Shown in pieces: positions 21,804-38,274 of a stretch of 64,000 bases of DNA (position 1 is the first letter of the stretch; each line of letters starts with the position of its first letter). The notes under the pieces were generated by a model. It saw nothing but the letters and a program-made list of their open reading frames with translations. It had not been told where the DNA came from and did not search any database. Source of the stretch: Cellulomonas sp. KH9 (GTDB lineage: Bacteria > Actinomycetota > Actinomycetes > Actinomycetales > Cellulomonadaceae); the NCBI RefSeq assembly GCF_900114185.1, contig NZ_FOSE01000003.1, positions 1 to 64,000 on the forward strand, read 5' to 3'. The position numbers and the translations under genes were made by a program.

Positions 21804-21895
21804 TGTAGGAACTCATTGAACTTGTCCGGAACTTGACGCTCTGACCTGCGTGCGGACAACTAGGTGAGACAGCGGCCGTCTCACCTAGTTGTCCG
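21804..21895 (+). repeat. left end of the transposon with transposase-binding sites
   Basis: The terminal repeat (21804-21828) is followed by a perfect 18-bp palindrome (21853-21870 with 21878-21895, loop AGCGGCC) whose outer ends are CGGACAAC and GTTGTCCG. This gives three copies of the TTGTCCG core: direct at 21822, inverted at 21853, direct at 21889. These are likely TniA/TnsB binding sites. Confidence 0.75.
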
Positions 21896-22118
21896 AATCT
21901 TCAGCCCGGGCAACGTGAAGGCGCGCGGCGACCCGCTGACTGCGGAGACGTCCGACCGATCCGAGTACGCGCGCGGCACTCGCGCCGACTGCTCGGGCTG
22001 ACCCCGACCCGCGCAGCCGTAGGAGGCCGGCTCCGCCTTTGCGTGCCTCGGGCCGCGCCAGCCCATGTCCGGATGATCTGCGCATGACGAGATCCGACGA
22101 GCTCGTCACAACGCCCAG

Positions 22119-23423
22119 TCACGCGTGCCATATGCCGAGCGGAGAGATGCTCTTCGCCAGTGCTTCACCGCCGACGGACAGCGGGCCGTTCCAGGCCAGT
22201 TCGGTGACGTCGATGCCGGCGTCCGTGGCTACCGCCTCGACGAGCGTCCGGCCGACTCCGCGCCGGCGCCACAAGGCGGCCGTGAAAATCACGTTGATGA
22301 CCGGCCGTTCGCGGATCGAACTCTGGGGCTGTGGAGCAGCGTCGAACGCCTGCCATCGGACTGCGATCTCATCGAAGACCGAGACGAAGCCGACGACCCG
22401 ACCGCCGTCGTTCAGCAGGTAGGCGCGCGCGTTCCTGTCGGACGGCTCGCCGTCGCCCACGGCGAATGAGGCGGAGTCATAGTGGTTCTCGCGTCGGGGA
22501 AGGACTGCGCTGGCGTAGGCAAGCCTTCGCCACGCTGGTGGAGACGTTCCGGTCACGAGCGCTACCTGACCGGCTGGCCAGAACACGTTGCGGGGTACTG
22601 GAAGCCCGATCGACCAGTTCAGGTGAGCGCGCCGGTGCTGCAGCTGCTCGAACTCCGCCGGCGCGCGAGCTGTACCGCACGGGCACTCCTGGACTGGCTC
22701 TGGTTTCGACGCGGTTGCGATGGCGACCACAGGAGTCGGCTCGCGCCATGATGCGGGCTCCCGGTCGACCTCAGGGCGAACGGGATCGTCCTCGGACCAC
22801 TCGTGCTGCTCGTAAGGCGCAGGGTCGGTGTACGACTTGAACTGGTCGGGGAACTCGCGGAGAAGCTCGCGACGAGACCGTGGCATCGTCGGCCGGACCC
22901 ACACCGCACCAGGCAATGCTCGTCCGTTGAGCCGCAGACCCCGGGCGTTCGCTTGGGCGCGCAGGTACTTCACGAACGCGGTCGGCGACGTCCAGAAGTC
23001 AATGCCCTGCCGCAGTTCCCGCTCCCCGGGAGCCAGCCAAGCATCGAGTGGCACGGCCATCTGGGACGTCAACGCCCCGATGCCGGTCAAGTCGCCCTCG
23101 AGCTCGGCGGCGCGCAGAGCCTTCGCGGCTTGGTCTGCAAGCTCGAACGGAACGAAGAGCGTGACAAAGCTGGAGCCCGCTCCGTAGAGGAAGTCGCCCG
23201 CGTACCCGTGGACCCACAGGTAGCCGCAAGCAGCGTTCACGCAGCGCTTCGCCGCTGCTGCGAACTCCGGTGCCAGCTCCGCGTCCTCGCGCCCCTCGGC
23301 GGCGGCGCGGTAGGCGTAGTCGTCTCGGTCGAGTGTCACTGTGGCGAACTTCCGCCCCAGCTCGACCTTCACTGTGCGACCCCCATGAGCACCGAGGGGA
23401 TCGACTGCGAAGACGCGGGTCAC
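22119..23423 (-). CDS. cargo protein with zinc-finger-like motif and C-terminal acetyltransferase domain
   Basis: A 434-residue protein. Its last 100 residues are GNAT-like (INVIFTAALWRRRGVGRTLV, then TELAWNGPLSVGGEALAKS). Just before them sits a Cys-x-Cys and His-x3-His pattern (Cys247, Cys249, His263, His267). A zinc finger followed by GNAT recalls ESCO/Eco1 acetyltransferases, but that is only an architectural likeness. The first 200 residues match nothing I know. TATAGA eight bases before the GTG suggests a leaderless mRNA. It is the last cargo gene near the left end. Confidence 0.6.
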   Translation of the reverse strand: MTRVFAVDPLGAHGGRTVKVELGRKFATVTLDRDDYAYRAAAEGREDAELAPEFAAAAKRCVNAACGYLWVHGYAGDFLYGAGSSFVTLFVPFELADQAAKALRAAELEGDLTGIGALTSQMAVPLDAWLAPGERELRQGIDFWTSPTAFVKYLRAQANARGLRLNGRALPGAVWVRPTMPRSRRELLREFPDQFKSYTDPAPYEQHEWSEDDPVRPEVDREPASWREPTPVVAIATASKPEPVQECPCGTARAPAEFEQLQHRRAHLNWSIGLPVPRNVFWPAGQVALVTGTSPPAWRRLAYASAVLPRRENHYDSASFAVGDGEPSDRNARAYLLNDGGRVVGFVSVFDEIAVRWQAFDAAPQPQSSIRERPVINVIFTAALWRRRGVGRTLVEAVATDAGIDVTELAWNGPLSVGGEALAKSISPLGIWHA

Positions 23424-23768
23424 GATTGGTCTCTATAGGTCACGGAGCAAGCGTGCCGCAGCCAGGATCCCGCGTCACGCGCCCACGACCAGCCGCATCG
23501 GGATGCCGGACAGGTCGGCCGCCACGGGGCGTGTGGGAAGTCGAGCGAGCTGTCCGGATTCCCACGCCGTGGCCTGTGGCCTGTCCGAGTTTCAGCGGCG
23601 GAGTGTCGACGTCATCTGCGCGGGTACGGCGGGTACGTCCGAGCGCATAGATCTCATGGAGCGGACGCCGGGCCGTCTGCTGGCGACCTTGGCGCGCACC
23701 GGGGGCGACGGCGCTGAAGCGCTGGCGCAGCGGCGAGGTAGTCCCTCCACTGCCGCGTTGGACGTTGG
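23424..23768. other. intergenic region in the cargo
   Basis: Open frames exist on both strands but none has a ribosome site or family content. The stretch probably holds the promoter of the acetyltransferase-like gene and the 3' region of the proteasome-like pair. Confidence 0.4.
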
Positions 23769-23954
23769 TCAGCCAGCCTTCTTGGGCTCCTTGAGGCGGA
23801 GCGGCTTGCTCGGAGCGGGCAGCTTCCGTGCGGCTGTGAGGGTGCCGGACTGTGAGCGGGGCGCGTCCGTCGCGGTCCACGCAGCACCACGACGACCGGC
23901 CCGGTAGACGTTCTGTGACCGGCTCGCGTTGGCGTTCGTGTCCTCTGAGGTCAC
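23769..23954 (-). CDS. small basic protein coupled to the proteasome-like gene
   Basis: A 61-residue basic, low-complexity protein (many Ser, Ala, Lys, Arg; ending LRLKEPKKAG). Its GTG overlaps the stop of the Ntn-hydrolase gene (GTGA), so it is translated together with it. No family is recognised. The tight coupling suggests a partner, substrate or adaptor of the Ntn hydrolase. Confidence 0.5.
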   Translation of the reverse strand: MTSEDTNANASRSQNVYRAGRRGAAWTATDAPRSQSGTLTAARKLPAPSKPLRLKEPKKAG

Positions 23955-24802
23955 GTCATCTCCATCGGCGGGTTGAGTAGCGGACTGAAGTAGTGCTTCC
24001 GCGAGACCCAGCGGAAGCCCTCGTGCTTCGTGATGCTAGCTACCTCGATCGGTCCCCCCACGGTAGGACTACCAGGTGAGAACCGCACGAACTGGATGGT
24101 CATGTGGACCAGGAAGTCCGCGAGGTCGATGGCGTCCTGGATCGGCATCGCGTCGGCGACGAACGGGATCGCGACCTGCTGCTTGATGATCTCGTTGAAG
24201 AGCGGAGCATCCGTGGCCGGGACCCCGAGGTTGACCAGTGCCTGGGGCAGGGCCTGGCTGACCCCTAGCAGAAGGCGGGTGATCGCCTCTGGTTGACCGT
24301 GCCAGGTTGCACCCGCCCCGCCCGCGAGCACGGGGACCACGGCCGGGGCGTCCGCGAAGTTGATCTCGTACAGCTCCGGCTCGTCGGCACCGGCTGAGTA
24401 TCCACCGATCAGGATGCCGAGGTCGCCCAGCGAAGAGCCGTCTGGCTCGCCGAGCGCGGCGAACTTCTCGTCCTGAAGGAACTCACGCGCTCGTTCCGCG
24501 ACGTCCGCCATCTGGTACGTCCGAAGATCGAGTCGCCAGTCGAGATGGGCGTCGTCGCCCCCCATGAACCGGACCCGAAGGTCCTTCGTGAGGGTCGCGA
24601 TGGAGGACGGACCGATGCTGCCGCGACCCCAGGTCATCGCCCCGACGGGGAGGCCCTTATGAAGGTTGAAGATCTTGTTCGCGTTGTTGTAGATGTTCAG
24701 GACCTGGGTGGTGCCGTCGGCCCCATCCGCGCTCAGTGTCGTCGCGCTGTCGGCGGCAAGCACGAAGCCATCGTTCACCTTGACCGCGACGGCGATGGTC
24801 AT
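23951..24802 (-). CDS. proteasome-like Ntn hydrolase
   Basis: A 283-residue protein resembling 20S proteasome beta subunits. It starts MTIAVAVKVNDGFVLAADS, so removing Met leaves Thr1, and an Asp stands exactly at position 17 (AADS), as in active subunits. NKIFNLHKG gives the Lys that normally follows, about nine residues later than the standard Lys33. GAMTWGRGSIG resembles the next conserved strand. It is much longer than HslV or a typical beta subunit and has no alpha subunit, Mpa or ClpX-like partner beside it. It lies between restriction genes and other cargo, so a defence role is possible but unproven. Confidence 0.65.
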   Translation of the reverse strand: MTIAVAVKVNDGFVLAADSATTLSADGADGTTQVLNIYNNANKIFNLHKGLPVGAMTWGRGSIGPSSIATLTKDLRVRFMGGDDAHLDWRLDLRTYQMADVAERAREFLQDEKFAALGEPDGSSLGDLGILIGGYSAGADEPELYEINFADAPAVVPVLAGGAGATWHGQPEAITRLLLGVSQALPQALVNLGVPATDAPLFNEIIKQQVAIPFVADAMPIQDAIDLADFLVHMTIQFVRFSPGSPTVGGPIEVASITKHEGFRWVSRKHYFSPLLNPPMEMT

Positions 24803-25129
24803 GGTGGCATCGTGGCAGACCAGAGAGCCCGATGTGCCCGTTTCCTGAAGACACGCCGCCCTCCCGGATGAACCCGACTGACCCGGGAGTGCGCAGCCGT
24901 AGTCCCACAGCCCGCCAGATCCTCAGCTGTGGATGACGTGGAGCGTGGGCGACGCAGCGCCGCAGTCGGGCGAGGGTGCCGACGCGACACGTCGCCTCCG
25001 CCCTCTCTTGCGAGCAGACCGCCTCTCCTGTGCTCGCCCGACTTCATCAGGCTTCATCAGTGCCGTCCTGGTAGACCCTGAGATGTCTTGATGGTCAATG
25101 GCCCGGTGCCGCCGCTGTCCATCCAGAGT
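24803..25129. other. intergenic region before the proteasome-like gene
   Basis: No protein-like frame is supported. It contains a short direct repeat (CTTCATCAG twice near 25042-25062) and probably the promoter of the Ntn-hydrolase gene. Confidence 0.4.
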
Positions 25130-25564
25130 TCACGCCGTCGGCCACTGGCGCGGCCGCGACAGCGCTGCCTCGTGGAGACGGGATCGGACGGCACGTAGCG
25201 ACGGCTTCATCTCGAGATGGCGGTAGTCGATGTACGTGTGCCCGGTGGGCAGCGCGTCGTCGCCCGCCGAGTCGTCGACTGCGCGCGTCCCGGCCTCTGC
25301 GATCTCCGAGACGGTGACGCCCCAACTGCCCGCGGTCTGTCCACCGCGGCTTAGGCGCTCCTCGTAGGCAAGCTGGGCGCTGGCCTTCGTTGACCGCGCG
25401 CCGGAGATCTTTCCGTTGTCGCCGGTCGATTCGCAGAACATCTGGACCGACGGGACCCCGCCGTCGAGGTAGCCGGGGTGGCACTGGCGCCAGTAGAACT
25501 CGTCGTCCTGGTCGAGCTCGATCTCGTGCGCCTCGAGAGGCGCGTAGGGGCGTGGCTCGTTCAC
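25130..25564 (-). CDS. conserved hypothetical protein coupled to hsdR
   Basis: A 144-residue protein whose GTG overlaps the hsdR stop (GTGA), making it the last gene of the restriction operon. It reads FYWRQCHPGYLDGGVPSVQM and GKISGARSTKASAQLAYEE, then GSWGVTVSEIAEAG, TYIDYRHLEMKPSLRAVRS and a basic end. The WRQ-H-P pattern and the acidic Asp-Asp segments are striking, but I know no function. Its position argues that it acts with the restriction system, for example as an immunity, control or antirepressor factor. Confidence 0.65.
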   Translation of the reverse strand: MNEPRPYAPLEAHEIELDQDDEFYWRQCHPGYLDGGVPSVQMFCESTGDNGKISGARSTKASAQLAYEERLSRGGQTAGSWGVTVSEIAEAGTRAVDDSAGDDALPTGHTYIDYRHLEMKPSLRAVRSRLHEAALSRPRQWPTA

Positions 25565-28500
25565 GACTTCCCACCCAGCAGCTCGGCGACGACGCGCGCG
25601 GTGGCGTAAGGCTCGGACTGTCGGACTGTGTCCTCGGTGCCGTCGGGGTGGAGCACGAAGATCTCCTGGACGTGGTCGACAAGTGTGACCTCGACCCGCG
25701 GGCTTGGTCCGTGCCATTCGAGCTGTACGCCGCCCGTCGGTGTCGGATAGATCCGCGGCAGGACGACGTGGAACTCGCTGAGCGCTGCGAGGAGTGCGCG
25801 AGCGGCGTGGAGAGATGCGCGGCCGATCGGGGCGCCTTCGCCGTCCAGCCATCCCGCAGGCAGCGCCTCAAGTTCGGCCAGTCGCGCGGACCACGGGGGT
25901 GCCGCGGCGGGTGTACCACTGGTCGGAAGCGCGCTCACCACTGCTGCGTGGAGCATCGCGCCGATCTCGGCGATGACCCGCTGGGAGTCGGCGTGCCCTG
26001 AGGCGATGTAGTCGGCTATGGCGTTGTGGGAGTGCTGGTTGGCGAACACGGCATCGACGACAGCGTCGGACAGGTCCGGCGACTCGAGGAACTGCACGCG
26101 GGAGTTGACCCGTGCCTGCTCGACGAGCGCCTCGTTCTCGAGGAGCACGGCCCCGAGGGTGTCGACGAACCCTTCGACCTGGCTGCGGGAGAACTCGGCG
26201 CCGAACAGGTCGTTGAGCCGGTCGATGACAGCCTGGAACGCGACCAGCACCGGGTCGGGTGCCTTGCCCGATCCGGCCGCGACGACCCCGCGCAGGCCGG
26301 CTCCACTGCCGAGCCCGATGTCCTGCGTCTCGCCGGCCGTGTGCTTGATCTTCTTGAGCACGACGTCGGAGACGTCGATCTCGGCGGTCACCGTCGTCGG
26401 GCGGATGTACCGCTCGAGCAGCCGGAGGAAGATCGCGCGCTTCTCGAGCTGGGTGTCGGCGTAGTCGACGACCTGGCTCATGAAGTCGTAGAGCCGCACG
26501 AACGTGCCGACGTCCTTGCGGAACTGATCGAGCGCCTCGATCTCGGCGGTGTCGTCGCGCCGGACTGCGTCGGTGTAGCGCTTGGCGAACTCGTCACGCG
26601 CTGGCTTGATCGTCGCTGCGAGTGCGTTGTTGCCGGCCCGCCCGACCCACGCGGCAACGCAGGCATCGACCTGCGCCTCGGTGAACACAGCGCCCTGGTC
26701 GAGCTTGGCGGAGATGTCATGGACGACGTTCGGGTCGGTCGTCGTCTCGAGCCGGGCGTCGGTGTAGTACGGCTCGAAGGACTTGCGGATCTCCTCCGGG
26801 TCGTTGACGAAGTCCAGGACGAACGTTACGTCCTTGCGCACCCCCGACGGGGTCCGGTACGTGCGGTTGAGCCTCGACAGGGTCTGCACGGCCAGGACAC
26901 CCGACAGGCGCTTGTCGACGTACATCGCGGTGAGCAGGGGCTGGTCGAACCCGGTCTGGAACTTGTTGGCGACGAGCAACACCTTGTACTCGGGGCCGGA
27001 GAACGCTGAGGCGATCTGTGAGCCGACCTTGGTCGGGTTCATCGAGGACTCGGTGAACTGCCCCGGCCCGGTCTCGGTGTCCTCGACGGAGCCGGAGAAC
27101 GCGACGAGGGTGCCGAGGCCGGTGTACCCGCGCTTGGCGATGTAGGCGTCGATCTGCGTCTTGTACCGGACGGCGGCCTTGCGGGAGTCGGTGACGACCA
27201 TCGCCTTGGCGTGCCCGTCGAGGAGGTGGGCGACGTTCTCGCGGAAGTGCTCGACGATGATGGCGCACTTCTGGCTGATGTTCGTGGGGTGCAGCTTCAC
27301 CCACCGCATCAGGCCCTTCGTCGCCGCGGCCTTGTCGACGAGCATGTCCTCGACCGCCTGCTCGACGGGGCTGTCGTACTCCTCGTCAGGCTGCGAGCCC
27401 TGGGCCGCGACGTTGCGGGCGATCTGGAAGGCCGTGTCGTAGGTCTGGTACCCGCGCAGCACGTCGAGGATGAACTCCTCTTCGATGGCCTGCTTCATCG
27501 TGTACGTGTGGAACGGCCGCGGGATGCCGTCGGCGTCGGGCGTGCCGAACAGCTCGAGGGTCTTGGCCTTCGGGGTGGCGGTGAACGCAAAGAACGACAC
27601 GTTCGGGGTCGTCGCCCGGGCAGTCATCTCGGCTGCGAGCTCGTCCTCGACGGAGACCTCTCCGCCGTCGTCGAGGTCGGCGCGCTCGGTGGCGGACAGG
27701 ATCGTGCGGATCTTCCCCGCGGTGGCGCCCGACTGCGACGAGTGCGCCTCGTCTGCGATGACGGCAAAGGTGCGACCGGCGAGGCCCTTGTTCTCCGCGA
27801 TGGCCTCCATCGCGAACGGGAAGGTCTGCAGCGTGACGACGACGATCAGCTTGCCGCCGGTGAGTGCCTGCGCGAGCGCCTGGGACTTCGACCCAGACTT
27901 GCGGGCCTCGACCTCGTCGACCGTCGTGATGATGCCTTCACCGCTGGACGTGCCGGTGTCGGCGGAGTCGATCTGACGCACAGCGACCTGCAGCTGGTCG
28001 TCGAGCACGGTGCGGTCGGTGACGACGATCACCGTGTCGAACACCTTGTGGTCGTGCTCGTCGAACAGCCGGGCCAGCCGGTGCGCCGTCCATGCGATCG
28101 AGTTGGTCTTCCCTGAGCCGGCCGAGTGCTGGATCAGGTACTTCTGCCCGGGCCCGTGCTCGCGGGCGTGCGCCACCATCGCGGTGACGGCCTCCCACTG
28201 GTGGTAGCGGGGGAACAGCAACGTCGTCGACTTGCTGACCGCGCCGCTGATGGGGTCGCGGGACTGCCGCGTCTCGACGTGGCAGAACTTGCCCAGGATC
28301 GTGAGCCACGCGTCGCGCTCGAGGACTTTCTCCCACAGGTACGACGTTGCTGAACCGCGCGGGTTCGGGGCGTTGCCCTTGCCGCCATGTCCGTCGCCGG
28401 CGTTGAACGGCAGGAAGTGAGTCTTGTCTCCGGCGAGGCGCGTGGTCATCCACACCTCCTCGTTCGACACCGCGAAGTGCACGAGCGCGCGGTTGCCGAA

Positions 28501-29094
28501 GCCGAGCAGCGGCTGCACGTGCCCGCCGGGGTCCTTGGGGAGGCGAGCCTTCTTGTACTGGTCGATCGCCTCAGCGACGGACTGTGTGAAGTCGGTCTTG
28601 AGCTCAAGCGTTGCGACGGGAAGCCCGTTGACGAACAGCACCAGGTCGAGCGAGCGGTTGTCCTTCGTCGAGAAGTGCACCTGCCGCATGACCCGCACGC
28701 GGACCTTGGCGTAGTCCGCCAGTGTCGTCGGGTTCAGCGAGGTCGCCGGCTTGAACTGGCACATCCGGAACGACGACGACACGTGCTTGAACCCGCGCCG
28801 CAGCACGTTCAGCGTGCCCCCGCCCTGTTCCGGCGGGGTGTCGAGCACCTTGCACAAGCGGTCAAGCAACGCGCTCGTCGCGGCTGGCTCCTGCGACGTG
28901 CCGACCTTCACCGACCTGGCGAACTCCTCCGGCTGAGTGTCCTGCAGCCAGCCGAGCACGTCGCCCGGGATGATCGCCCGCTCCCGGTCGTACTCCGCAC
29001 CCGGCTCGTGATCCGTCGGCGAGTACAGCCAACCGTGCGCCGCCAGGTGCGCGCACAGCTCGGACTCGAATGGCTTCTCGTTGTAGTCCGCCAT
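25561..29094 (-). CDS. hsdR: type I restriction enzyme R subunit
   Basis: A 1177-residue motor-nuclease subunit. It has the PD-(D/E)xK nuclease core (ELK at residues 164-166), a Walker A (SAGSGKT, Lys329), a DEAH box from Asp448 (ADEAHSSQSG) and later helicase motifs (FAFTATPK, TGFDQPLLTAMYVDKRL, QTLSRLNRTY). With HsdM and HsdS it translocates and cleaves unmodified foreign DNA. The ATG at 29094 overlaps the hsdS stop; a GTG one codon earlier is possible. The length is normal for the family, so it should be active. Confidence 0.95.
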   Translation of the reverse strand: MADYNEKPFESELCAHLAAHGWLYSPTDHEPGAEYDRERAIIPGDVLGWLQDTQPEEFARSVKVGTSQEPAATSALLDRLCKVLDTPPEQGGGTLNVLRRGFKHVSSSFRMCQFKPATSLNPTTLADYAKVRVRVMRQVHFSTKDNRSLDLVLFVNGLPVATLELKTDFTQSVAEAIDQYKKARLPKDPGGHVQPLLGFGNRALVHFAVSNEEVWMTTRLAGDKTHFLPFNAGDGHGGKGNAPNPRGSATSYLWEKVLERDAWLTILGKFCHVETRQSRDPISGAVSKSTTLLFPRYHQWEAVTAMVAHAREHGPGQKYLIQHSAGSGKTNSIAWTAHRLARLFDEHDHKVFDTVIVVTDRTVLDDQLQVAVRQIDSADTGTSSGEGIITTVDEVEARKSGSKSQALAQALTGGKLIVVVTLQTFPFAMEAIAENKGLAGRTFAVIADEAHSSQSGATAGKIRTILSATERADLDDGGEVSVEDELAAEMTARATTPNVSFFAFTATPKAKTLELFGTPDADGIPRPFHTYTMKQAIEEEFILDVLRGYQTYDTAFQIARNVAAQGSQPDEEYDSPVEQAVEDMLVDKAAATKGLMRWVKLHPTNISQKCAIIVEHFRENVAHLLDGHAKAMVVTDSRKAAVRYKTQIDAYIAKRGYTGLGTLVAFSGSVEDTETGPGQFTESSMNPTKVGSQIASAFSGPEYKVLLVANKFQTGFDQPLLTAMYVDKRLSGVLAVQTLSRLNRTYRTPSGVRKDVTFVLDFVNDPEEIRKSFEPYYTDARLETTTDPNVVHDISAKLDQGAVFTEAQVDACVAAWVGRAGNNALAATIKPARDEFAKRYTDAVRRDDTAEIEALDQFRKDVGTFVRLYDFMSQVVDYADTQLEKRAIFLRLLERYIRPTTVTAEIDVSDVVLKKIKHTAGETQDIGLGSGAGLRGVVAAGSGKAPDPVLVAFQAVIDRLNDLFGAEFSRSQVEGFVDTLGAVLLENEALVEQARVNSRVQFLESPDLSDAVVDAVFANQHSHNAIADYIASGHADSQRVIAEIGAMLHAAVVSALPTSGTPAAAPPWSARLAELEALPAGWLDGEGAPIGRASLHAARALLAALSEFHVVLPRIYPTPTGGVQLEWHGPSPRVEVTLVDHVQEIFVLHPDGTEDTVRQSEPYATARVVAELLGGKS

Positions 29095-30326
29095 CACGCC
29101 ACCCCCTGCGTTGCCCGGCCCGTGGTGCGCACGTCGATCTGGCCGGCGACCGTTGCCGTGATCAGTGCGGTGCGCCGTTCTTTGGCGAGGGCGATGTGGC
29201 GATCTGCTCGTTCGATCAGGAGGTCGATAGTCGCCAGCCGATCATCGAGGTACGTAACGATCTGCCGCTGCTCATCCCGCGGCGGCCTGGCCCAGGGTGC
29301 TGCAGCGAGTTCCTCTCGGTTGATCTTCGGCATCTTGACGCGCGCCGACATCACGGAGACGTAATTGTGAAAGGGAGTCGCGCGCATCCAGTGCGCAATG
29401 AACCGGTGATCGCTTCCCTTGCGGCTTGAGAGCGGATACATGTCAGCGCTGCAAAGGCAGTCCTCGACGGCGATCGCGATCTTGTTCAGCGCCGGCCGGA
29501 TCTTGGAGAACAGAATCTGCCCGCTGGTGGCGAGGTACTTGCCGCTGTCGGCGCCCTGCTCGGCGGCTGACTCTCGACCAAGGATGCGACCTGTTCCGCC
29601 TTCGATGTGGTTGGGCGCCACCAGGGTCATGGCCGCCCACGGGTCGGCGCTTGGGTCAACCTGGCCTTCGTTCACCGCAATCTCCCGGCCGAAGCGGTCT
29701 TGCGACCACCCCTCGGGGATCTGCGGTAGGAACGGGTTGCGGGTCTCCACGAGCGAAGCGCCGTTGAGACCGCGTGTCACGGCCCTGGTGACGACAGCCG
29801 AGCGGCGTTCGCGGAGGGTGGTGATTAGTTGGGTCTGCTTGGCGATCAGCGTGTCGATCCGCGACGTCTGCTCGTCCAGGAAGTCCGCAATCGCCCTCTG
29901 TTCCTCGATATCCGGCGCAGGGATCGCGATGTGAGCGACCTGCCATGAAGACAGATGCTTGACGGTCGTGGCGTACGTCAGGTCGTTGATGACCTTGAGG
30001 TGACGTGGGAGTGCGTACGCAAGGAAGCGTGGATCGCAGTCTGCTCTGCTTCGTAGTGCGCACAGTCGTTGATTGAGTGCGGCGGTCCCTCGGCGCCACA
30101 GTTGTACGTTGAAGTCGCCGTCCATCCCAACAACGACGTCGTCGTTGCGGAGGAGCGCGCCGCCAGGAGCCGTCGCCACGGGGATGTAAGTCTCGAACTC
30201 GTCGGCGAGCAGGTCGCGGATTCGCACTAGAGGCATCTCTTCGGTCGACGAGAAGGTCGCCGCGTCGAACGGGAACCCGTTGAAGAGAGAAGCAAGGTCG
30301 CCGACGCGGCGCGTGCGCCAGGTCAC
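29094..30326 (-). CDS. hsdS: type I restriction enzyme specificity subunit
   Basis: A 410-residue specificity subunit with two target recognition domains and two coiled-coil spacers. The first half ends in IPAPDIEEQRAIADFLDEQ with a coiled coil (TSRIDTLIAKQTQL), and the second ends in RPPRDEQRQIVTYLDDRLA with another. It sets the DNA sequence that is methylated or cut; the sequence itself cannot be told from the protein. The GTG start overlaps the hsdM stop (GTGA). Confidence 0.95.
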   Translation of the reverse strand: MTWRTRRVGDLASLFNGFPFDAATFSSTEEMPLVRIRDLLADEFETYIPVATAPGGALLRNDDVVVGMDGDFNVQLWRRGTAALNQRLCALRSRADCDPRFLAYALPRHLKVINDLTYATTVKHLSSWQVAHIAIPAPDIEEQRAIADFLDEQTSRIDTLIAKQTQLITTLRERRSAVVTRAVTRGLNGASLVETRNPFLPQIPEGWSQDRFGREIAVNEGQVDPSADPWAAMTLVAPNHIEGGTGRILGRESAAEQGADSGKYLATSGQILFSKIRPALNKIAIAVEDCLCSADMYPLSSRKGSDHRFIAHWMRATPFHNYVSVMSARVKMPKINREELAAAPWARPPRDEQRQIVTYLDDRLATIDLLIERADRHIALAKERRTALITATVAGQIDVRTTGRATQGVA

Positions 30327-32293
30327 GCCTCCACCTCTCGCAGCAACTCGAGGATCTCACCCACCAGAACGTCGAGATCGCGGTCGATCTCCTCAAGCGG
30401 TCGCGGAGGCACGTACCTGTAGAAGTGCCGTGTGAACGGGATCTCGTAGCCGACCTTGGTCTTGGTGCGGTCGACCCAGGCGTCGGGCACGTGCGGTAGC
30501 ACCTCGGTCTCCATGTAGGCGTCGATCACGGCCTGCTCGGTGCCGTCGGCGTCGGCCGTCTTGGGGGTCCCGTTCCAGCCGAAGGGGATGTTCTCGGTGT
30601 CGCGCAGCTTGGGGTCGGGCTCGGGGTTGCCCTTGGCGTCGCGGATCTCGTCGGCGGTCTCGTCGCGCTCGCCGATCGTGAGCCACAGCGTGCGGCGCTG
30701 CGGTGTGGTGAGCGCGACGCCGTTCGAGCCGAGGTGCTTGCCGAGGTCCTTCATGAACGCGTCACGGTTGAGGTACACCGACTCGCCGAAGGTGGCGAGC
30801 GCGTCCGCCAGCCGGTCGCGGTCGACGGCCTTGAGCTTCGGCTCGTCGCGCACGAGCGCGACCCGCTCGGGCGTGCAGGCGAACCGCAGGCGCAGGGGCC
30901 GTTCGACGGTGATGGTCCAGTAGCCGAAGTCCTGCGTGTCGAAGATCTTCGACGTCTCGCCGGTCTCGAACGCCGCGTAGTCGGCGAGGATCGCCTTGCG
31001 ATCGACGTCGCTGATCTCGACGCGCTTCGAGCCGAGCGACTTCCGCATCTTGCTAGACCGCCCCGATCCGTCGATGAGTTGCACCTTGCCAGCCCGCTCG
31101 GGCGACTTGGTGTTGTCGAGCACCCACACGTACGTCGAGATCCCAGTGTTGTAGAACATGTCGGCCGGCAGCGCGACGATCGCCTCGACCAGATCCTTCT
31201 CCAGCAGCCAGCGTCGGATCTCCGACTGTCCCGACCCTGCGCCGCCGTTGAACAGAGGGGACCCGTTCATGACGACTCCGACGCGTCCGCCGCCCTGCGA
31301 GGCCGGGCGCATCTTCGACGCGAGGTGCAGCAGGAAGAGCATCTGTCCGTCGCCCACCCCCGGCAGGCCCGGGCCGAAGCGGCCGGCGAACCCGCGCTTG
31401 TGCTCGTCCTTGACGGCCTTCTCCGACGCCTTCCAGTCCACGCCGTACGGCGGGTTTGCGAGGCAGTAGTCAAAGGTCTGGCCGGGGAACTGGTCGTCCG
31501 ACAGGGTGTCCCCGAGCTTGATGTTGTCCGGGTTCTGCCCCTTGGCGAGCAGGTCGGACTTGCAGATTGCGTACGACTGGTCGTTGATCTCCTGCCCGTA
31601 CAGCGTCAGTCGGGCGTCGGGGTTCTGACCGAGCAGGTGCTCCTCGGCGAGCGAGAGCATGCCGCCGGTCCCAGCTGTGGGGTCATAGACAGTGCGAACG
31701 GCGCCCTTCTCGCCGATGGCCTCGTTGTCCTCGGCGAAGATCAGGTCGACGACCAGCCGGACGGCGTCGCGCGGCGTGAAGTGGTCACCGGCCGTGGCGT
31801 TCGAGGCCTCGGCGAAACGGCGGATCAGATCCTCGAACAGGTCGCCCATGTCGGAGTTCGAGATGACGTCCGGGTGGAGGTCGACTTTCGTGAACCGCTC
31901 GACCACGAGGTAGAGCCGGTCCTTCTCGGCGAGCTTGGCGACGACCTCGTCGAACTTGAACCGATCGAAGACGTCGATCGCCGACGAGAACGAGTGCACG
32001 TACTCCACGAGGTTGGCCTGCAGGCCATCGGGGTCCTGCAGGAGGCCGGTCAGCGTGAACTTCGACGTGTTGTAGAACCGCAGGCCGGTCGCCTGGCGGA
32101 CGAGCGACGCCTGACGCATCTCGGAGTCGACGCCGTCGATCAGGCTCGCGATCTGCTCGCGGTGCGGCTCGAGGATCGCGTCCAGCCGACGCAGGATCGT
32201 CATCGGCAGGATGACGGACCCGTACTCGTGCTGCTGATACGGGCCGCGGAGCTGGTCCGCGATCCCCCACACGAAACTGCTGAGCTTGCTCAC
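30323..32293 (-). CDS. hsdM: type I restriction enzyme methylation subunit
   Basis: A 656-residue adenine-N6 methyltransferase subunit. Motif I is DPTAGTGGM (from Asp204) and the catalytic NPPYG starts at Asn280. The N-terminal HsdM helical domain (WGIADQLRGPYQQHEYGSVI) and a long C-terminal region are present. I chose the GTG at 32293, preceded by GAGGG; a TTG at 32308 is possible. It leads the hsdM-hsdS-hsdR-hypothetical operon, all with overlapping ends. Confidence 0.95.
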   Translation of the reverse strand: MSKLSSFVWGIADQLRGPYQQHEYGSVILPMTILRRLDAILEPHREQIASLIDGVDSEMRQASLVRQATGLRFYNTSKFTLTGLLQDPDGLQANLVEYVHSFSSAIDVFDRFKFDEVVAKLAEKDRLYLVVERFTKVDLHPDVISNSDMGDLFEDLIRRFAEASNATAGDHFTPRDAVRLVVDLIFAEDNEAIGEKGAVRTVYDPTAGTGGMLSLAEEHLLGQNPDARLTLYGQEINDQSYAICKSDLLAKGQNPDNIKLGDTLSDDQFPGQTFDYCLANPPYGVDWKASEKAVKDEHKRGFAGRFGPGLPGVGDGQMLFLLHLASKMRPASQGGGRVGVVMNGSPLFNGGAGSGQSEIRRWLLEKDLVEAIVALPADMFYNTGISTYVWVLDNTKSPERAGKVQLIDGSGRSSKMRKSLGSKRVEISDVDRKAILADYAAFETGETSKIFDTQDFGYWTITVERPLRLRFACTPERVALVRDEPKLKAVDRDRLADALATFGESVYLNRDAFMKDLGKHLGSNGVALTTPQRRTLWLTIGERDETADEIRDAKGNPEPDPKLRDTENIPFGWNGTPKTADADGTEQAVIDAYMETEVLPHVPDAWVDRTKTKVGYEIPFTRHFYRYVPPRPLEEIDRDLDVLVGEILELLREVEA

Positions 32294-32444
32294 CGGTAGT
32301 GCCCTCAACTCTCCACACGCTGCGCGGCGAGAGGGGCGTGGCCCCGCGGTCGCCGCTGATCCATCGCGAGGCTACCGCCGACTCGAACCGCGAAATGGAC
32401 GTTCGGCGACTTGCCCCAGTAGTCCGGATCGGAGCGTCGGTTGC

Positions 32445-32666: not shown

Positions 32667-34388
32667 TCAAGGTGGACGAGCCGATCGGTCGTCGTCTGAG
32701 CACAACCCGAGTTCCTGCCCGATGGCAATGGAGAGACTGCTGGATAGCAGATCGGGCGGTTCTGCGCGTCCCAAGGGCGCCTGGGCGAACGCGGAATGAC
32801 CGCCCGTGTGGTCGAGCCAGAACCGGCACGCCATCGCCTCGGCGGCCCGAGGCCGGGCGGTGTCACCTAACCGATGTGCCGCCTGTCGGCATGCCCTCAG
32901 TAGTTCGTCGACTTCGGCCACTTCGAGACGTCGCCGTTGATAGTCCACGGTCGGCGGTGTTTCATGGATGCGGTGATACAGGTCGTCCAGGGCTGCTAGG
33001 TAGGCTGGCCAGAGCTTGGCGTCATAGATCGCCCACCAGTGAGTTCTGAACTGCGTCGCACTCATCGCCGGGAGCCCGAGCGCGATCGCGAGGCGGCCCC
33101 ACGGTCGGTCGGTGCCGTACCGCGCGAGACACGTCGCTGTGAACGCGCGCCCCAGCGGGGAGTTGATCCCGAGCTCGGGCTTCGCGTCGACGCCGAGCGC
33201 ACCTTCGTCGACGACCTGCGGGATCCAGGCGAGCGGTAGGGCGCTTCGCCCGTCGGAGGCCTGCAGCAGCCGGGTCGTGGGATTCACGCCGTCGGGGTAT
33301 CGCGGTCGCTCCGAGCCGAGTCGGTGACTGAGCTCGGCGCCGAGGCTGAACCTGCCGCGAAGACCGGTGAGTGTGATCGCGACGATCAGCGGGTTACGCG
33401 GCTTGGAGCGCACGTGCGTGTCACTGGCCAGTGGTGCAAGTTCGTTGTTCTGACCGAAGGCTTGCCGCCGCACGGCTTCGCGGCCGGCGGCGACCAGGCT
33501 CGCCGTGCTGAGGACGGCGTCGGCGTCGAGGAGTGCGCCCATGTAGACCTCGAGTCGCGGCGCGCGCGCGGCGTTGACCTTCCGGTCGATGATGGTCAGC
33601 CACGCTTCGAGGACCGTTTGGGCGCGACCCAAGGTGCCGCAGCTCTCCACCAGCCCCTCACGGGCTGTGGCCGCTCTCGCCGCCAGGTCGAACAGGTTCG
33701 CCTGCGCTTTGACGACCTCGGCGAAGACGGTCGGCGCCTCGATCGTCGCGAAGTCGGTGAGGCACCGCCGGCGGTACCGGCCGCCACTCGACAGGGTGTC
33801 GAAGGCGGGGCAGATGGTGACGCCCGTACGACTCGTGTGCCATGCCGTGCCCCCGAACGGCGGCCGATCACACCCCGGGCACTCGACCATCAGCTCGACG
33901 CGGTGCTCGATGCACACGAGGTGCAACGGGTCCGTCCATGACTCGCGCCAGTACCCGTCACGTCGCAGACAGTCCGGGCAGAACTTCGTCCGCGACAGTG
34001 CGGGAGCGCGTGCTTCAAGCCCGAGCTCACGGCGGTACTCGGCGCGGGCATCCGCCAGCGCGCGGCCGATACCGCCGCGGAGGTCGGAGAGGTCGTCGAC
34101 CGTGACAGCGAGTCGTTCCGCGACGACTGAGCGCGCTGGTGCCGGCAGCTTGTCCAAGTGCAGGAACCGTTGGGGGAGTACGTCCACGCCAGCGCTTCGG
34201 AGCAAGTCACGTGGTGACAGGGCGTACCTGTTCGCGAAGCGGACCAGCCAGGACCCCACGTGCTCGTCGTCGTGCCGCGGGACGGCGATGGGCATGCGGT
34301 CGACGACGTAACCGCCGCCCGCCGACCGGAGACGTCGCGCCCCAGCGGCGGGCGGTTCAGCGGCGCGCGGCGCCGGCCTCTGCGGCAT
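32667..34388 (-). CDS. tniQ: TniQ/TnsD-family target-selection protein
   Basis: A protein of up to 573 residues that chooses insertion sites for the transposon. The typical TniQ opening (MPIAVPRHDDEHVGSWLVRF) starts at an ATG at 34295; a longer start at 34388 overlaps tniB by 32 bases. A zinc-finger set follows: CPDC, then CIEH, then CPGC within about 40 residues, as in TniQ/TnsD proteins. The large C-terminal part probably binds the target. An in-phase open frame after the stop may be a lost C-terminus. Confidence 0.85.
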   Translation of the reverse strand: MPQRPAPRAAEPPAAGARRLRSAGGGYVVDRMPIAVPRHDDEHVGSWLVRFANRYALSPRDLLRSAGVDVLPQRFLHLDKLPAPARSVVAERLAVTVDDLSDLRGGIGRALADARAEYRRELGLEARAPALSRTKFCPDCLRRDGYWRESWTDPLHLVCIEHRVELMVECPGCDRPPFGGTAWHTSRTGVTICPAFDTLSSGGRYRRRCLTDFATIEAPTVFAEVVKAQANLFDLAARAATAREGLVESCGTLGRAQTVLEAWLTIIDRKVNAARAPRLEVYMGALLDADAVLSTASLVAAGREAVRRQAFGQNNELAPLASDTHVRSKPRNPLIVAITLTGLRGRFSLGAELSHRLGSERPRYPDGVNPTTRLLQASDGRSALPLAWIPQVVDEGALGVDAKPELGINSPLGRAFTATCLARYGTDRPWGRLAIALGLPAMSATQFRTHWWAIYDAKLWPAYLAALDDLYHRIHETPPTVDYQRRRLEVAEVDELLRACRQAAHRLGDTARPRAAEAMACRFWLDHTGGHSAFAQAPLGRAEPPDLLSSSLSIAIGQELGLCSDDDRSARPP

Positions 34389-35424
34389 TGTCGATCTTGA
34401 CCCGGTCGATGACGTCGCGGTCGATGGTCTCCGAGCCGCTCCTGGTGGCGCGGAGACACGCGCGGTCGAGCAGATTCGTCAGCGAGGCGATGTTGCCCTG
34501 CGTGCGGCGGAAGATCTCGCGGGCGTTGTCGGTGAGCATGCCCTCGCGCGCGTCTGCCAGGACGATGTGCTTCTCGAGGGCCCGGAGCAGCGCCATCCAT
34601 GCTCGGTAGCCGGCCTCGTTGTCGATCCTGAACGCCTCGACCGCGCACCGTGTCGCTCGCCGACTGGTCTGCGCGTAGGCGGCCTGCTCGCCCATCAGCC
34701 CTTCGTCGAAGAACCGCTTCTCGGTGAGGTTCACCCCGGTGTACACGAAAGTCGCGGGCATCTCGTTGACCAGCCACTTGAGGTGGTTCGAGACATCCAT
34801 GCCGTTGCGGTGCTTGAAGTCGATGAAGTGCAGGTCATCGATGATGATCAACTTGGTCTGACAGGACAGCACGCAGTCGACCGCCAACGCGCCCAGCGTC
34901 GAGGTCGAGGCCTTGCGTGCGCCGGGGTGGCCGTAGAACTCCAGGATCTTCATGTTGAGGCCCTTGAGCGTCATACCCGCGGCGAGCGGGACGAAGGCCA
35001 CAGGTAGGCGCTGGTGGCCCTCCTCCGTCAGCGGGCCGTGGCGGGCGTAGACGCGCCGATGGAAGTCCCGCCCGAACTGCGCCGCGATGGTGGTCTTCCC
35101 GTTCCCCGCGGGGGCATCGACGACGGCTGTGCCACGAAGCCGATCGCCGTCGCGTCGCGACGACGCCATGACCTGGTCGAGCACGTCGTACGCGTCCAGG
35201 ACCTGGAAGGTGTTGATGGTCGGGAGATTGGCGTTCCAGACCATGCGGCACTCGTCGTAGAGCGCCCGCTCCTCGTCACCCAAGCGCTCGAGCTCCGTCC
35301 GGTCGAGACGCTCGAGCTGCTCCCGAGGGGCGGCGTTCACGAACGCGTTCCATCCGGACTTGCGTCCCAGCGCGAAGTCCTGCGTGTCGTTGCGCTCGAG
35401 CCACAGCGCCCATCGGTTCGTCAT
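34357..35424 (-). CDS. tniB: TniB/TnsC-like AAA+ transposition regulator
   Basis: A 355-residue ATPase with Walker A (DAPAGNGKTT, about residues 103-112) and Walker B (LIIIDDLHF), in the AAA+ group of transposition regulators that link the target selector to the transposase. Its ATG overlaps the stop of the transposase gene (ATGA). Confidence 0.9.
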   Translation of the reverse strand: MTNRWALWLERNDTQDFALGRKSGWNAFVNAAPREQLERLDRTELERLGDEERALYDECRMVWNANLPTINTFQVLDAYDVLDQVMASSRRDGDRLRGTAVVDAPAGNGKTTIAAQFGRDFHRRVYARHGPLTEEGHQRLPVAFVPLAAGMTLKGLNMKILEFYGHPGARKASTSTLGALAVDCVLSCQTKLIIIDDLHFIDFKHRNGMDVSNHLKWLVNEMPATFVYTGVNLTEKRFFDEGLMGEQAAYAQTSRRATRCAVEAFRIDNEAGYRAWMALLRALEKHIVLADAREGMLTDNAREIFRRTQGNIASLTNLLDRACLRATRSGSETIDRDVIDRVKIDNAAEAGAARR

Positions 35425-37412
35425 CAGTCGAGCACCTCGAACTCGTCGACGGGTTCGTATCGCTCGAAGACATCGAGGTCATCGGCTGGTTGCGACCGCG
35501 CAGCTCGCCGCTCGAGCAGGTTGATGACCCCGGGAAGGGCCGCGATCTGTCTCGCGTCACCATCGACGTCGTGCGAGGGCTGGGCGGCGAGTCGGCGGGC
35601 GAGGCTCTGGTGGCGGCGGGTCGTCACCTCTCCGCGCTGCCAGGCCGCGAGGAGCTCGTGAACCGCGGCGGAGGGGTTGTCGACGTGTGTGCCGTGCAGC
35701 GCTACCCGCTTGGCGTACTCGACCGCCTCGAGACTGAAGGGAGCCTTAAGGGAGGGCGCGTGCTCCCACTTCAACTCGTTCCATGAGTCGTCGCCGGGGT
35801 CGCGGAACCACACGTGTCGCACGTCGTGCACATCGACGTGGAGCGGCCACTTGCCCGCGTACGCGCCGCCGTAGGTCGACTTCAGGTTGCGGTACGGGCT
35901 CAGAGCCTCGCCGTCGTAGCGCAGCCCGTTGACCTCGACCCCGTAGTGCTGGATCGTCCGCCACTTCACGTCCAGGAATTCGAACGCGAGATCCCGGGCC
36001 GCAGGCAGCATCAGCCCGCCGATCCGGGTGAGGCCGATCTCGAACATCTGGGCCGGAGTGAAGCGCGCCCGCGGGATCTCCGCGATCGCCAGCCCGTCGT
36101 GCTCCGTGTGGTGATACACGGTCGCGACCCACTCACGGATGATCTGCTCGAGCTCGGCGACGTAGTAGAAGGCGCCTTGCTCGACGCGCTCGCCGCGCGA
36201 GTAGACGTCTGGCCCCTTGTATCCAGGCAGGTGCTGCAGGAGCGACTCGCGGAGCGTCTTAAAGAACCGTTCGATCGTCGGCTTGTCCGTCGGCTTGTGC
36301 GGGATGGCCGGCTGCACGCAGATCCCGAGGCGTGCGCATGCCCCGATGACGTGGGCGGACATGTACTGCTTGCCGTGGTCGGTCACGATCGTGTCAGGGA
36401 CGATGGCTGGCAGGCCGCCCTGGCGCTCTTGATGCACGCCGTCAGGTTCCTCGGTCCCGACCAGGAGGTTGGATGGGACGCCGTGGTAGGGCCAGGTCTG
36501 TCCCGATCCGCTCTGAGGTAGCAGGCACTGGAACAGCACGTTCGCCACGTCGATCGCCTTCGTCGACACCGGGGTGAGCCGCAGTCCGAGGACACTCCGG
36601 GACATCAGGTCCATCGCGACGGTCAGCTGCACGGGAACCCAGCGTCCCGTCACGGGCTCCATGGCGAAGACGTCGAGGGAGTTGGTGTCGAGCACCACGT
36701 ACTCGCCCGGTCGATCCGCTCGAAGACGCCCGAGCACGCCGTCCGGACGAGCAGCGACAGATCGACGGGCCTTCGCCGAGCCGAACGTGTAGCGGCCCTT
36801 CTCGAGCTCCTTGAGGCGCCGGTAGGCAGTAGCCCGGTGGGGCAGCGCCACGTCGCGGCCGTGCTGCGCGACCACGCGACGGCTGACCTCGTCGATCACA
36901 GCGCCCTGGGTCGGCGTCGACTTGTTCGTGTACTGCTTCAGCACGTCCAGACAGACAGCGTCCCAACGCGGGTCCACGCGCGGAGTGCGTCGCTGTGTCG
37001 CGGTGGCGTTCACGAGCCCAGCGACGCCTCGTTCACGGAATGCCGCCACTCGCCGCCGGACAGTGCGGACGTCGACACCGAGCTCGCGTGCGGCATCGTC
37101 CATCCGTGGTCCCCATGGTCCGTCACCTTCGAGCAGGTGGGTGATGACGCGCGCCGTCTCCTCGACCGAGGCGCGTGCCGACTGCGAGAGCGACGAGAGT
37201 GCGATGGACCCGAGCGGATCGCCGCCGTACTCCGACGCTCCTGGATCGAGGATCCGCAGCCCGTCGATGAGGTTCCCGAAGGGGACACGCGCGACGTTGG
37301 TATCGAGCCGCAGGACAACGTCGTGAGGGTGCACCGCTTCGACCCGCCAGAGCGCGCCCTCCCACCAGACGGTGGAGCCTGGGCGGACCTCGACAGTGCC
37401 GTTCTGCCTCAT
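35424..37412 (-). CDS. tniA: TniA/TnsB-like DDE transposase
   Basis: A 662-residue Mu/Tn7-type transposase. The catalytic triad fits DDE spacing: Asp242 (VVLDTNSLDVF), Asp345 (VTDHGKQY) and Glu381 (KPTIERFFKTL), with 35 residues between the last two. A helix-turn-helix precedes it (DDAARELGVDVRTVRRRVAA) and the Mu-type C-terminal domain follows. The ATG overlaps the tnsA stop (ATGA), which also marks the start because the frame is open much further upstream. Confidence 0.92.
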   Translation of the reverse strand: MRQNGTVEVRPGSTVWWEGALWRVEAVHPHDVVLRLDTNVARVPFGNLIDGLRILDPGASEYGGDPLGSIALSSLSQSARASVEETARVITHLLEGDGPWGPRMDDAARELGVDVRTVRRRVAAFRERGVAGLVNATATQRRTPRVDPRWDAVCLDVLKQYTNKSTPTQGAVIDEVSRRVVAQHGRDVALPHRATAYRRLKELEKGRYTFGSAKARRSVAARPDGVLGRLRADRPGEYVVLDTNSLDVFAMEPVTGRWVPVQLTVAMDLMSRSVLGLRLTPVSTKAIDVANVLFQCLLPQSGSGQTWPYHGVPSNLLVGTEEPDGVHQERQGGLPAIVPDTIVTDHGKQYMSAHVIGACARLGICVQPAIPHKPTDKPTIERFFKTLRESLLQHLPGYKGPDVYSRGERVEQGAFYYVAELEQIIREWVATVYHHTEHDGLAIAEIPRARFTPAQMFEIGLTRIGGLMLPAARDLAFEFLDVKWRTIQHYGVEVNGLRYDGEALSPYRNLKSTYGGAYAGKWPLHVDVHDVRHVWFRDPGDDSWNELKWEHAPSLKAPFSLEAVEYAKRVALHGTHVDNPSAAVHELLAAWQRGEVTTRRHQSLARRLAAQPSHDVDGDARQIAALPGVINLLERRAARSQPADDLDVFERYEPVDEFEVLD

Positions 37413-38128
37413 GCGTGCGTCACCCACGTCCTGGAGTCGAGCGGAGTCGAGAGGTCGCAGCCCAGTCGGTGCCACCAGAGAGCCGCGAGGATCGCCGACC
37501 TCGCGGCGCCCGGCAGGGAACGGCGCAGCTCCTGCTCGAGGTGACCGAGCGCGGCCCCGCCCGGGGGGCAGGCCTCGACGGCGGCCTCGATGAGCGAGGG
37601 GCCGATCAGAACTGACCGTCGTGCGGCACCGAGGAGGCGCACGTTGCGCAAGGTCGCCTTGGGAGCGCCCATCCAGACGAGGTACTCCCACCCCCGCTCC
37701 TGCATGACGCGAGCGGTCCAGTTCAACGACTCACGCACGGCGGGCTTCTTCAGCATCTCCTCGGGCTTCACGTCGACCACGACGACGCGCCCATCGGCCA
37801 TGACGCACAGGAAGTCCGGGTACCGCGTTCTGGTCCGCCCGCCGTCGTCACCGACGACGTAAAGGGGCTGTGCCGCGATCCCGACCACGTCCGGGTCGAA
37901 GTCAGCCAGCCACAGCCACGAGAGCTCGAGCCTGCTCTCGTAGACGACGTGCGCCCGCATCGTCGACGACCAGAACAGGCCCGGGTAGTTCGTCTGCCCG
38001 GCGTACGAGGGCGGGATGCGCACTGGGGTGCCCTGCACCGCCTCGAGGGCGTCGATGCCCGCGAGCGGTGCCTCGCGCTCGAGGCCGTCCGCCGTCAGGT
38101 ACATCGCTCGGGTCACAGCCGTGCCCAC
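37409..38128 (-). CDS. tnsA: TnsA-like endonuclease subunit of the transposase
   Basis: About 239 residues, resembling TnsA, which cuts the 5' ends so that the element moves by cut-and-paste. The nuclease-like core reads YESRLELSWL, TRYPDFLCVM and VVVVDVKPEEML (Glu, Asp and Lys of a restriction-type fold). The start is uncertain: GTG 38128, GTG 38116 or ATG 38104; the frame is open to 38176 in the element end. The innermost transposase site lies just upstream, so the operon may be repressed by its own transposase. Confidence 0.85.
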   Translation of the reverse strand: MGTAVTRAMYLTADGLEREAPLAGIDALEAVQGTPVRIPPSYAGQTNYPGLFWSSTMRAHVVYESRLELSWLWLADFDPDVVGIAAQPLYVVGDDGGRTRTRYPDFLCVMADGRVVVVDVKPEEMLKKPAVRESLNWTARVMQERGWEYLVWMGAPKATLRNVRLLGAARRSVLIGPSLIEAAVEACPPGGAALGHLEQELRRSLPGAARSAILAALWWHRLGCDLSTPLDSRTWVTHA

Positions 38129-38145
38129 CTGCACAGGATGGCGCG

Positions 38146-38220
38146 CGGACACGCTAACGCGACGCCGGACACGCACCGGACACGCTAACGCGAATCGGAC
38201 AAGCCCAATGCGAACCCACA
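38146..38220 (-). repeat. right end of the transposon with four transposase-binding sites
   Basis: CGGAC cores stand at 38146, 38166, 38177 and 38196. Two of them continue as CGGACACGCTAACGCGA exactly. The outermost continues as CGGACAAGCCCAATGCG to the terminal ACA at 38218-38220, matching the left end in inverted form. Four clustered sites at the right end are the Tn7 pattern. Confidence 0.8.
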
Positions 38221-38274
38221 GCCGGCGGTGACAGGACGCGAGGCCACCGGGGGAACAAACTGCGCCCCCCCAAG

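Follow-up and report, generated by a model that had tools for sequence, protein, structure and literature searches.

A Tn7-like element of 16,417 bp lies directly upstream of the heat-shock gene dnaK in Cellulomonas sp. KH9. It is very probably a cut-and-paste transposon whose long TniQ protein recognises the HAIR operator in front of dnaK and directs insertion beside it, and whose units stack at that site. The stretch analysed, called the window below, comprises the first 64,000 nucleotides of contig NZ_FOSE01000003.1 (assembly GCF_900114185.1). The element occupies positions 21804-38220, and TGT is read directly at both of its ends.

These boundaries were put forward in an earlier note made from the sequence alone, and they hold. 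Both ends are readable, and the end profiles score there: the 100-bp left-end profile gives 90.5 bits at 21804 and the right-end profile 34.8 bits at 38220. The window is among the training loci of the former (G000, G003, G060, G077, G078 and G079) and among the rows of the latter. The left end (L) is TGTAGGAACTCATTGAACTTGTCCGG, from 21804; the right end (R), read inwards and finishing at 38220, is TGTGGGTTCGCATTGGGCTTGTCCGA. The terminal repeats match as the note had said, but a recount on the sequence gives 20 of 29 identical bases, not 21. The three spaced left sites and four packed right sites that it described were located as well. On the left, TTGTCCG lies at 21822(+), 21853(-) and 21889(+); the middle site is inverted and forms with the third a near-perfect palindrome of 43 bp. 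On the right, all sites are on the minus strand, at 38146, 38166, 38177 (GTGTCCG) and 38196 (TTGTCCG). Heptamer numbers in the window are no evidence in themselves (TTGTCCG 11 against 7.1 expected, GTGTCCG 12 against 31 expected); what matters is the arrangement at both ends, with TGT...ACA tips and several TnsB sites per end, as in Tn7-like elements. A weak second right-end-like stretch of strong composition bias (13.7 bits) lies inside the right end, at 38069-38128 within tnsA. The GH25 gene to the left of the element is common to seven relatives (G003, G010, G060, G069, G077, G078 and G079), but the flank itself is preserved nearly up to 21803, short of it by a few bases, in G079 alone, where another left end comes next.

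The four transposition genes claimed for the right end all have family matches. TnsA (NF033179, TnsA_like_Actin), TniB and TniQ score above cut-off; TnsB is identified by PADLOC, with Pfam rve and Mu-transpos_C marginally under their cut-offs. TnsA, TnsB, TnsC and a TniQ/TnsD protein are found in one gene cluster, as expected of a Tn7-like element, and genes, ends, flanks and the position of relatives agree with a complete transposon of this type. The matches of the ten main open reading frames (ORFs) of the window include neither a Cas effector, no array search having been made, nor an integrase, for which the relatives' arrays were not searched.

Insertion is specific in site and orientation, at a conserved chromosomal position. 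Close relatives of the TnsB (66-100% identity) occur in 8 of 81 Cellulomonas genomes, its own included, and in 8 of 8 they lie directly upstream of dnaK with tnsA towards it; in G027 the contig stops inside tnsB. Distant TnsBs (at most 40%) are sited elsewhere, on a different contig from dnaK in G023 and 431 kb away in G024. Measured from the right tip in the eight genomes, the first HAIR operator (HAIR1) stands at 55-56 bp, GGGAA at 30-31 bp and the start codon at 178-197 bp. The first of two possible tips in G036 was used because of a 5-bp duplication there. PMC9775585 gives the form of HAIR as CTTGAGT-N7-ACTCAAG and places lon in the HAIR/HspR regulon; PMC8223512 places dnaK and clpB under HspR control.

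Across the Actinomycetes, 78 named loci were found through TnsB, 75 of them testable, with tnsA, and 3 without it. A HAIR operator lies 54-61 bp outside the right tip in 29 of the 75: at dnaK in 25, at lon in two (L146 of Nocardia flavorosea and L155 of Micropruina glycogenica) and at clpB in two (L147 and L150, both Nesterenkonia). The lon and clpB assignments are by NCBIfam; the ClpB pieces fall under the full-length cut-off because the loci stop inside the gene. Twenty-three of these loci were called by script, five were read after the tip had been set by hand, and one, L187, was read by eye as TTGAGTCAGATAAGAGCAA at 56 bp, outside the HAIR search pattern. L132 and L143 lay outside the tip pattern and were read by hand. 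The dnaK loci come from Cellulomonas, Brachybacterium, Isoptericola, Cellulosimicrobium, Ornithinimicrobium, Paraoerskovia, Mobilicoccus, Mycolicibacterium, Mycolicibacter, Mycobacterium, Pseudokineococcus, Kineosphaera, Knoellia, Nostocoides, Brevibacterium, Dermacoccus and one further actinomycete. As far as we looked, the feature common to the dnaK, lon and clpB sites is a promoter with HAIR. In 770,836 bases from within the tns genes and next to them, a loose HAIR pattern matched five times. When dnaK was placed in the 22 genomes behind non-dnaK loci, it was on the locus contig, by matchable coordinates, only in Kineosphaera; the Micropruina dnaK is 1.5 Mb from its locus. TnsB relatives at E 1e-60 are also present in 62 plasmid records (30 from Rhodococcus, 18 from Streptomyces), with 66% as the best listed identity.

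Several features of the promoter region might serve as the landmark. The dnaK start codon was rejected, its distance from the right tip spreading over 163-267 bp in the 29 dnaK loci measured for it (tips of L144, L176, L186 and L193 corrected by 19 bp from an inner CCGACA); because this distance varies, it is the operator and not the coding sequence that fits. The signal could instead be the sigma-H -35 element, GGAA, which keeps a constant 25 bp from HAIR1 in the non-mycobacterial dnaK loci measured, where both fit. From tip to GGAA there are 29-36 bp at dnaK, but 12-14 bp in five mycobacterial loci, in which HAIR1 is still 54-57 bp from the tip (54-61 elsewhere). HAIR is therefore the better landmark, and we regard GGAA as a very improbable signal.

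Targeting could also be loose, anywhere upstream of heat-shock genes, with only promoter-sparing insertions surviving. Such a filter would explain why insertions lie just outside the promoter while the exact 5-mer varies between genomes. Nothing obvious speaks against insertion 100 or 300 bp upstream, however, and tolerance alone would hardly confine insertions at three genes, in many genera, to a range of 54-61 bp and a fixed orientation; we give this explanation barely any credence. A third proposal is that the landmark is HspR bound to HAIR, with TniQ or TnsC docking on the protein-DNA complex and insertion tied to the heat-shock state. The spacing follows HAIR, and all three target genes are HspR-controlled in actinomycetes according to the same passages (PMC8223512, PMC9775585). 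Tn5053-type elements at plasmid resolution sites are a precedent, in that they depend on the resolvase. The main text of PMC11406308 lists this target. However, for the selectors of the TnsD/TniQ type described in the main texts of PMC10293859 and PMC11406308, what is bound is DNA, a Cas complex or a partner (TnsF, for example), and no sign of contact with HspR emerged in this analysis. Docking on HspR is thus unlikely, and direct reading of HAIR by TniQ is the explanation that we favour.

The predicted model of TniQ (mean predicted local distance difference test score 85, predicted template modelling score 0.79) matches TniQ/TnsD structures, with a best E of 4.7e-3 in Foldseek and, by VIA, a best Z of 12.7 at a root-mean-square deviation of 3.5 over 149 residues; the matches are confined to residues ~24-373. 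PDB sequences give weak TniQ/TnsD matches, and NCBIfam holds no model for these TniQs. TniQ length was counted for 22 of the 29 HAIR loci. A complete long ORF of 560-679 residues (start codons uncertain) is present in 18 of the 29; TniQ leaves the locus in two (L145, L146) and is short or broken in two more (L131, 263 residues; L132, 412). Two TniQ lineages, with 73-74% and 24-36% identity to that of the window, occur at one site. A different arrangement is seen in seven loci (six Rhodococcus, one Millisia; L134-L140), where one young sister element occupies different sites with no HAIR. Identity between its copies across the tns region is 92-99.9% in the comparisons listed. Its TnsB is 56-57% identical to that of the window, and its TniQ has 309-314 residues (216 in one). 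The motif GTCACTC is common to four of the seven flanks, so this element may have its own target. A HAIR-reading role for the C-terminal part of the long TniQ would fit this correlation of short TniQ with absence of HAIR.

Compared with G036 in 250-bp steps, the window tns operon is 94-100% identical over 36,100-38,100, 86-90% over 35,600-36,100 and 73-81% in tnsC, and its tnsC has 81-93% identity to G008 and G011. Judged by these values, the operon is a mosaic. The segment 35600-36100 in tnsB appears to be a recombination zone between two tns lineages.

We looked for target duplications in the 14 genomes that combine a right end at dnaK with one or more left ends (52 altogether). A left end with the identical 5-mer was found in 8 of the 14, and one with at least 4 of 5 bases in 11; in 5,000 shuffles the means were 0.91 and 2.40 and the maxima 6 and 8. 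The 5-bp duplication of Tn7-like elements is therefore present in the family. G011 (C. edaphi), with a left end beside the same GNAT gene as in the window, has perfect ACCGG/ACCGG flanks. Since the matching left end encloses other left ends in G036, G011 and G048, the last move probably carried the stack as cargo.

In G041, which has no TnsB match, the matching pair bounds just 1.05 kb; a SUFU-like gene lies between, and tns genes are absent. Another unit, of 973 bp, carries one nucleotidyltransferase-like gene (Pfam just under cut-off) and no tns gene, and is 99% identical in G077 and G079. It is next to dnaK in the former and ~8 kb further out in the latter, its flanks differ, and the identity runs from the left TGT to a few bases past the right ACA. 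A second unit is 86% identical tip to tip in G036 and G069, and several more pairs have the exact left boundary alone in common. These comparisons support the existence of units without transposase genes, which may have been moved in trans.

The earlier note had suggested a search for other insertions with the same ends, and many were found. Regions upstream of dnaK were taken from 73 of 81 Cellulomonas genomes (58 longer than 15 kb, 13 shorter, 2 unusable, with the start not placed). The left-end profile detects 98 left ends of at least 30 bits in 29 genomes, all in one orientation, and no independent left end in the opposite one; no TnsB of this family is at dnaK in 22 of the 29. The census misses some: G074, scanned over 1.5 kb, has two exact tips 5-7 kb upstream. 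Genome-wide, the exact left-tip pattern matches 43 times in 21 of 81 genomes and the reversed pattern 0 times; compared by hand, 42 of the 43 are at most 32 kb upstream of a dnaK copy, in dnaK orientation. The remaining one is on contig C11 of the genome of KH9 itself. On this contig (22 kb, 12.2 kb of it read, G000:C11:10000-22204, L223) the left flank of the window element recurs together with a second GH25 gene (96%), followed by the left end of a different element; dnaK has no match there. The contig may be foreign, or it may represent a second locus.

In 15 of 92 cases, but at none of 460 control points, a right end of at least 15 bits precedes a left end by at most 20 bp; the gap is 4-6 bp in nine of the 15 and 0 in two. 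Stacking is clear from the junctions in these 15 cases. Junctions of the form R-5 bp-L are found in Kineosphaera and Ornithinimicrobium too, and one of 4 bp in G412; Kineosphaera and G412 each have two tns-bearing elements on one contig. The right end abuts another element's left end in the HAIR-negative loci L149 and L152, and also in L206. Between left ends we counted 96 stretches in 28 genomes, with a median of 1.6 kb over the 87 shorter than 12 kb. Gene calls there are uncertain, being the longest ORFs in GC-rich DNA; these run in the plus direction in 36 stretches and in the minus direction in 50. Ten cargo proteins were picked for plausible frames: six score above cut-off to APH, GNAT, methyltransferase, GrpB, SUFU or HEAT, one is a nucleotidyltransferase just under it, and three have no match.

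Arrays of short units in one orientation, with cargo such as APH, GNAT and methyltransferase, would also be expected if the palindromic left end of ~100 bp were an integron-like recombination site and a recombinase, not the Tns proteins, built the arrays. Yet L has TnsB-type sites and a transposon tip and comes together with R ends and 5-bp duplications, and the 973-bp mini-unit is common tip to tip. ORF direction is mixed, unlike that of integron cassettes; no recombinase search was made. We consider this origin extremely improbable and attribute the arrays to the Tns proteins.

Two further observations concern the regions upstream of dnaK. Repeats of GCGTCTTCCC immediately precede several left ends in G018, G036, G015, G048 and others; they could represent a further type of right end, or else a repeat unconnected with these elements. 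G040 has two copies of dnaK that face opposite ways (G040:C4:85163-98866), and a left end lies ~10.7 kb upstream of either one, either as a true inverted duplication or as an assembly artefact.

We now propose how the element would home and accumulate. TnsA, TnsB and TnsC would cut and paste it, while the long TniQ would recognise the HAIR operator of the HspR regulon, and insertion would proceed right end first, ~55 bp upstream of the first HAIR. Since insertion would leave the promoter of dnaK (or lon, or clpB) and its operators undamaged, the site would be safe and available for the next insertion. Each new insertion would enter at nearly the same base and push older ones outwards, so that units pile up as R - ~5 bp - L. 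For units with only L, a gene and R, TnsABC-TniQ of a passing element would supply the movement in trans, and the whole stack could move as one composite between an outer L and the R next to dnaK. Such movements may well continue today.

A number of observations weigh against this reading. No HAIR is found at the right end of 46 of the 75 testable loci, and in Streptomyces many loci whose TniQ is long, yet different, are sited elsewhere. The 25 dnaK loci count through their spacing only, because HAIR belongs to dnaK anyway; independent support for HAIR comes from lon and clpB, four loci only. The common site is shared by TniQ lineages just 24-36% identical, and the C-terminal half of TniQ has no clear structural match in the model of the whole protein. 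The flanks of the window element, ACCGG and GCCGG, agree in 4 of 5 bases, short of a full match. G016 and G039 were left out of the duplication test (left ends, doubtful right tips, no match); with them the counts become 8 of 16 and 11 of 16. The check proposed in the earlier note failed to find its empty site: joined flanks compared with 73 loci of the genus gave no genome joining 21803 to 38221. Finally, as only 15 of 92 left ends have a recognisable R within 20 bp, most stretches between left ends are bounded on one side only.

Table 1. Coordinates of the element, its genes and its insertion site in the window.
Feature	Position	Strand	Remarks
Left flank, ACCGG (target-site copy)	21799..21803	.	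4/5 with 38221-38225; perfect 5-mer copy in G011
Left end (L), tip TGTAGGAACTC, three TnsB-type TTGTCCG sites	21804..21903	+	palindrome 21853-21895
GNAT-like acetyltransferase gene, probably cargo of an older unit	22119..23423	-	weak; 91% in G011, between two L ends
Degenerate internal left end, putative mark of a second unit	23532..23583	+	10.8 bits, E 0.021 in the window
NTN-hydrolase/proteasome-like ORF (by eye)	23951..24802	-	no family match
PDC-M32B-like candidate defence protein (C-terminal half of ORF)	25130..25852	-	E 4.7e-17
hsdR with PDC-M32A-like C-terminal extension	25561..29097	-	
hsdS	29094..30326	-	
hsdM	30323..32308	-	PADLOC MTase_I 5e-267
tniQ of 573 aa (long form), presumably the target selector	32667..34388	-	
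tnsC (TniB family AAA+)	34357..35424	-	
tnsB (DDE transposase)	35424..37412	-	start at 37412 inferred
tnsA (NF033179 TnsA_like_Actin)	37409..38104	-	start at 38104 inferred
Right end (R), four packed TnsB-type sites	38146..38220	-	tip TGTGGG at 38220
Right flank, GCCGG	38221..38225	.	5 bp
GGGAAC, which we take to be the sigma-H -35-like element of dnaK	38251..38256	+	
HAIR1 operator TTGAGCCCATCAGACTCAA, proposed target signal	38276..38294	+	55 bp from right tip
HAIR2 operator	38340..38358	+	
dnaK, host gene with operator at the insertion site	38418..40286	+	

That everything between the ends is cargo, as the earlier note held, is supported, though the cargo is probably made of two units: a degenerate left end lies just inside the GNAT gene, and G011, which has the same order as the window, shows a clearer counterpart, a left end of 42 bits at the place matching 23532. 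The window element is thus probably a composite, with the left end at 21804 and the GNAT gene followed by the left end at 23532, the restriction genes and the tns operon. Among the genes named in the note, hsdMSR is firm, with Pfam and PADLOC matches. The gene described as coupled to it is present as an ORF, which we now identify as a candidate defence protein of the PDC-M32B type. The HsdR ORF overlaps it (25130-29097). The PDC-M32 module seems to come and go, as hsdR in G014 and G040 aligns only to residues 1071 and 1060, respectively. For the acetyltransferase the resemblance in Pfam holds but is weak (E 0.0013, under cut-off), while the ORF called proteasome-like has no Pfam, NCBIfam or PADLOC match.

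An operator-homing family, if it exists, would solve targeting differently from elements that home on genes: one selector would have several addresses (dnaK, lon, clpB), and its signal would be hard for cells to lose. The stacks suggest how Tn7-like machinery collects cargo unit by unit, which bears on cargo gain generally, and TniQ with a short, well-known operator of 19 bp as its target would make a ready test system. More tentatively, and with somewhat less confidence than an even chance would imply, we see here a transposon-built counterpart of the integron: HAIR would be a docking signal across a regulon, small units would stack beside it and the stack would move as a composite, with docking possibly gated by HspR and capture linked to stress.

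HAIR or dnaK targeting and stacks of mini-units were not found in our searches of an open-licence library, judged by titles and the beginnings of abstracts, nor by term search in the main texts of PMC8649781, PMC10293859 and PMC11406308. The main text of the last names glmS, tRNA genes, parE, comM, yhiN, guaC, yciA, ffs and rsmJ as chromosomal sites of Tn7-like elements, with Tn5053 at plasmid resolution sites as the exception to gene targets. By term search, the main text of PMC8649781 has no dnaK, promoter or non-autonomous (its supplements were outside our scope), and that of PMC10293859 no dnaK, HSP70, heat shock or chaperone. The former describes a TnsB clade dominated by Actinobacteria and without experimental characterisation, and it reports defence cargo, which our element carries as well; the latter suggests direct target selection by TniQ-family proteins longer than 400 aa, a size that the window TniQ exceeds.

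Tn5053-type elements resemble the present one in that their target is a protein-bound non-coding site, given as plasmid resolution sites in the main text of PMC11406308. They differ in using plasmid sites bound by a resolvase, whereas the present element uses a heat-shock operator on the chromosome. Integrons likewise build up arrays in which short units follow each other in one orientation beside a fixed site, and their cargo is similar; the arrays described here have TnsB-type ends, 5-bp duplications and mixed gene direction, and imply no integrase, none having been searched for. The closest likeness is to Tn7 itself. Both have TnsA, TnsB and TnsC with a TniQ-domain selector (TnsD in Tn7), asymmetric ends spaced on the left and packed on the right, and a 5-bp duplication. 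The packed end faces the recognised site in both, as the main text of PMC11406308 has it for Tn7. Tn7 recognises the last part of the coding region of glmS and inserts downstream of it, and according to the same text it shows target immunity; the element described here would read a regulatory operator, lies upstream of the dnaK promoter and has relatives whose units stand a few bp apart.

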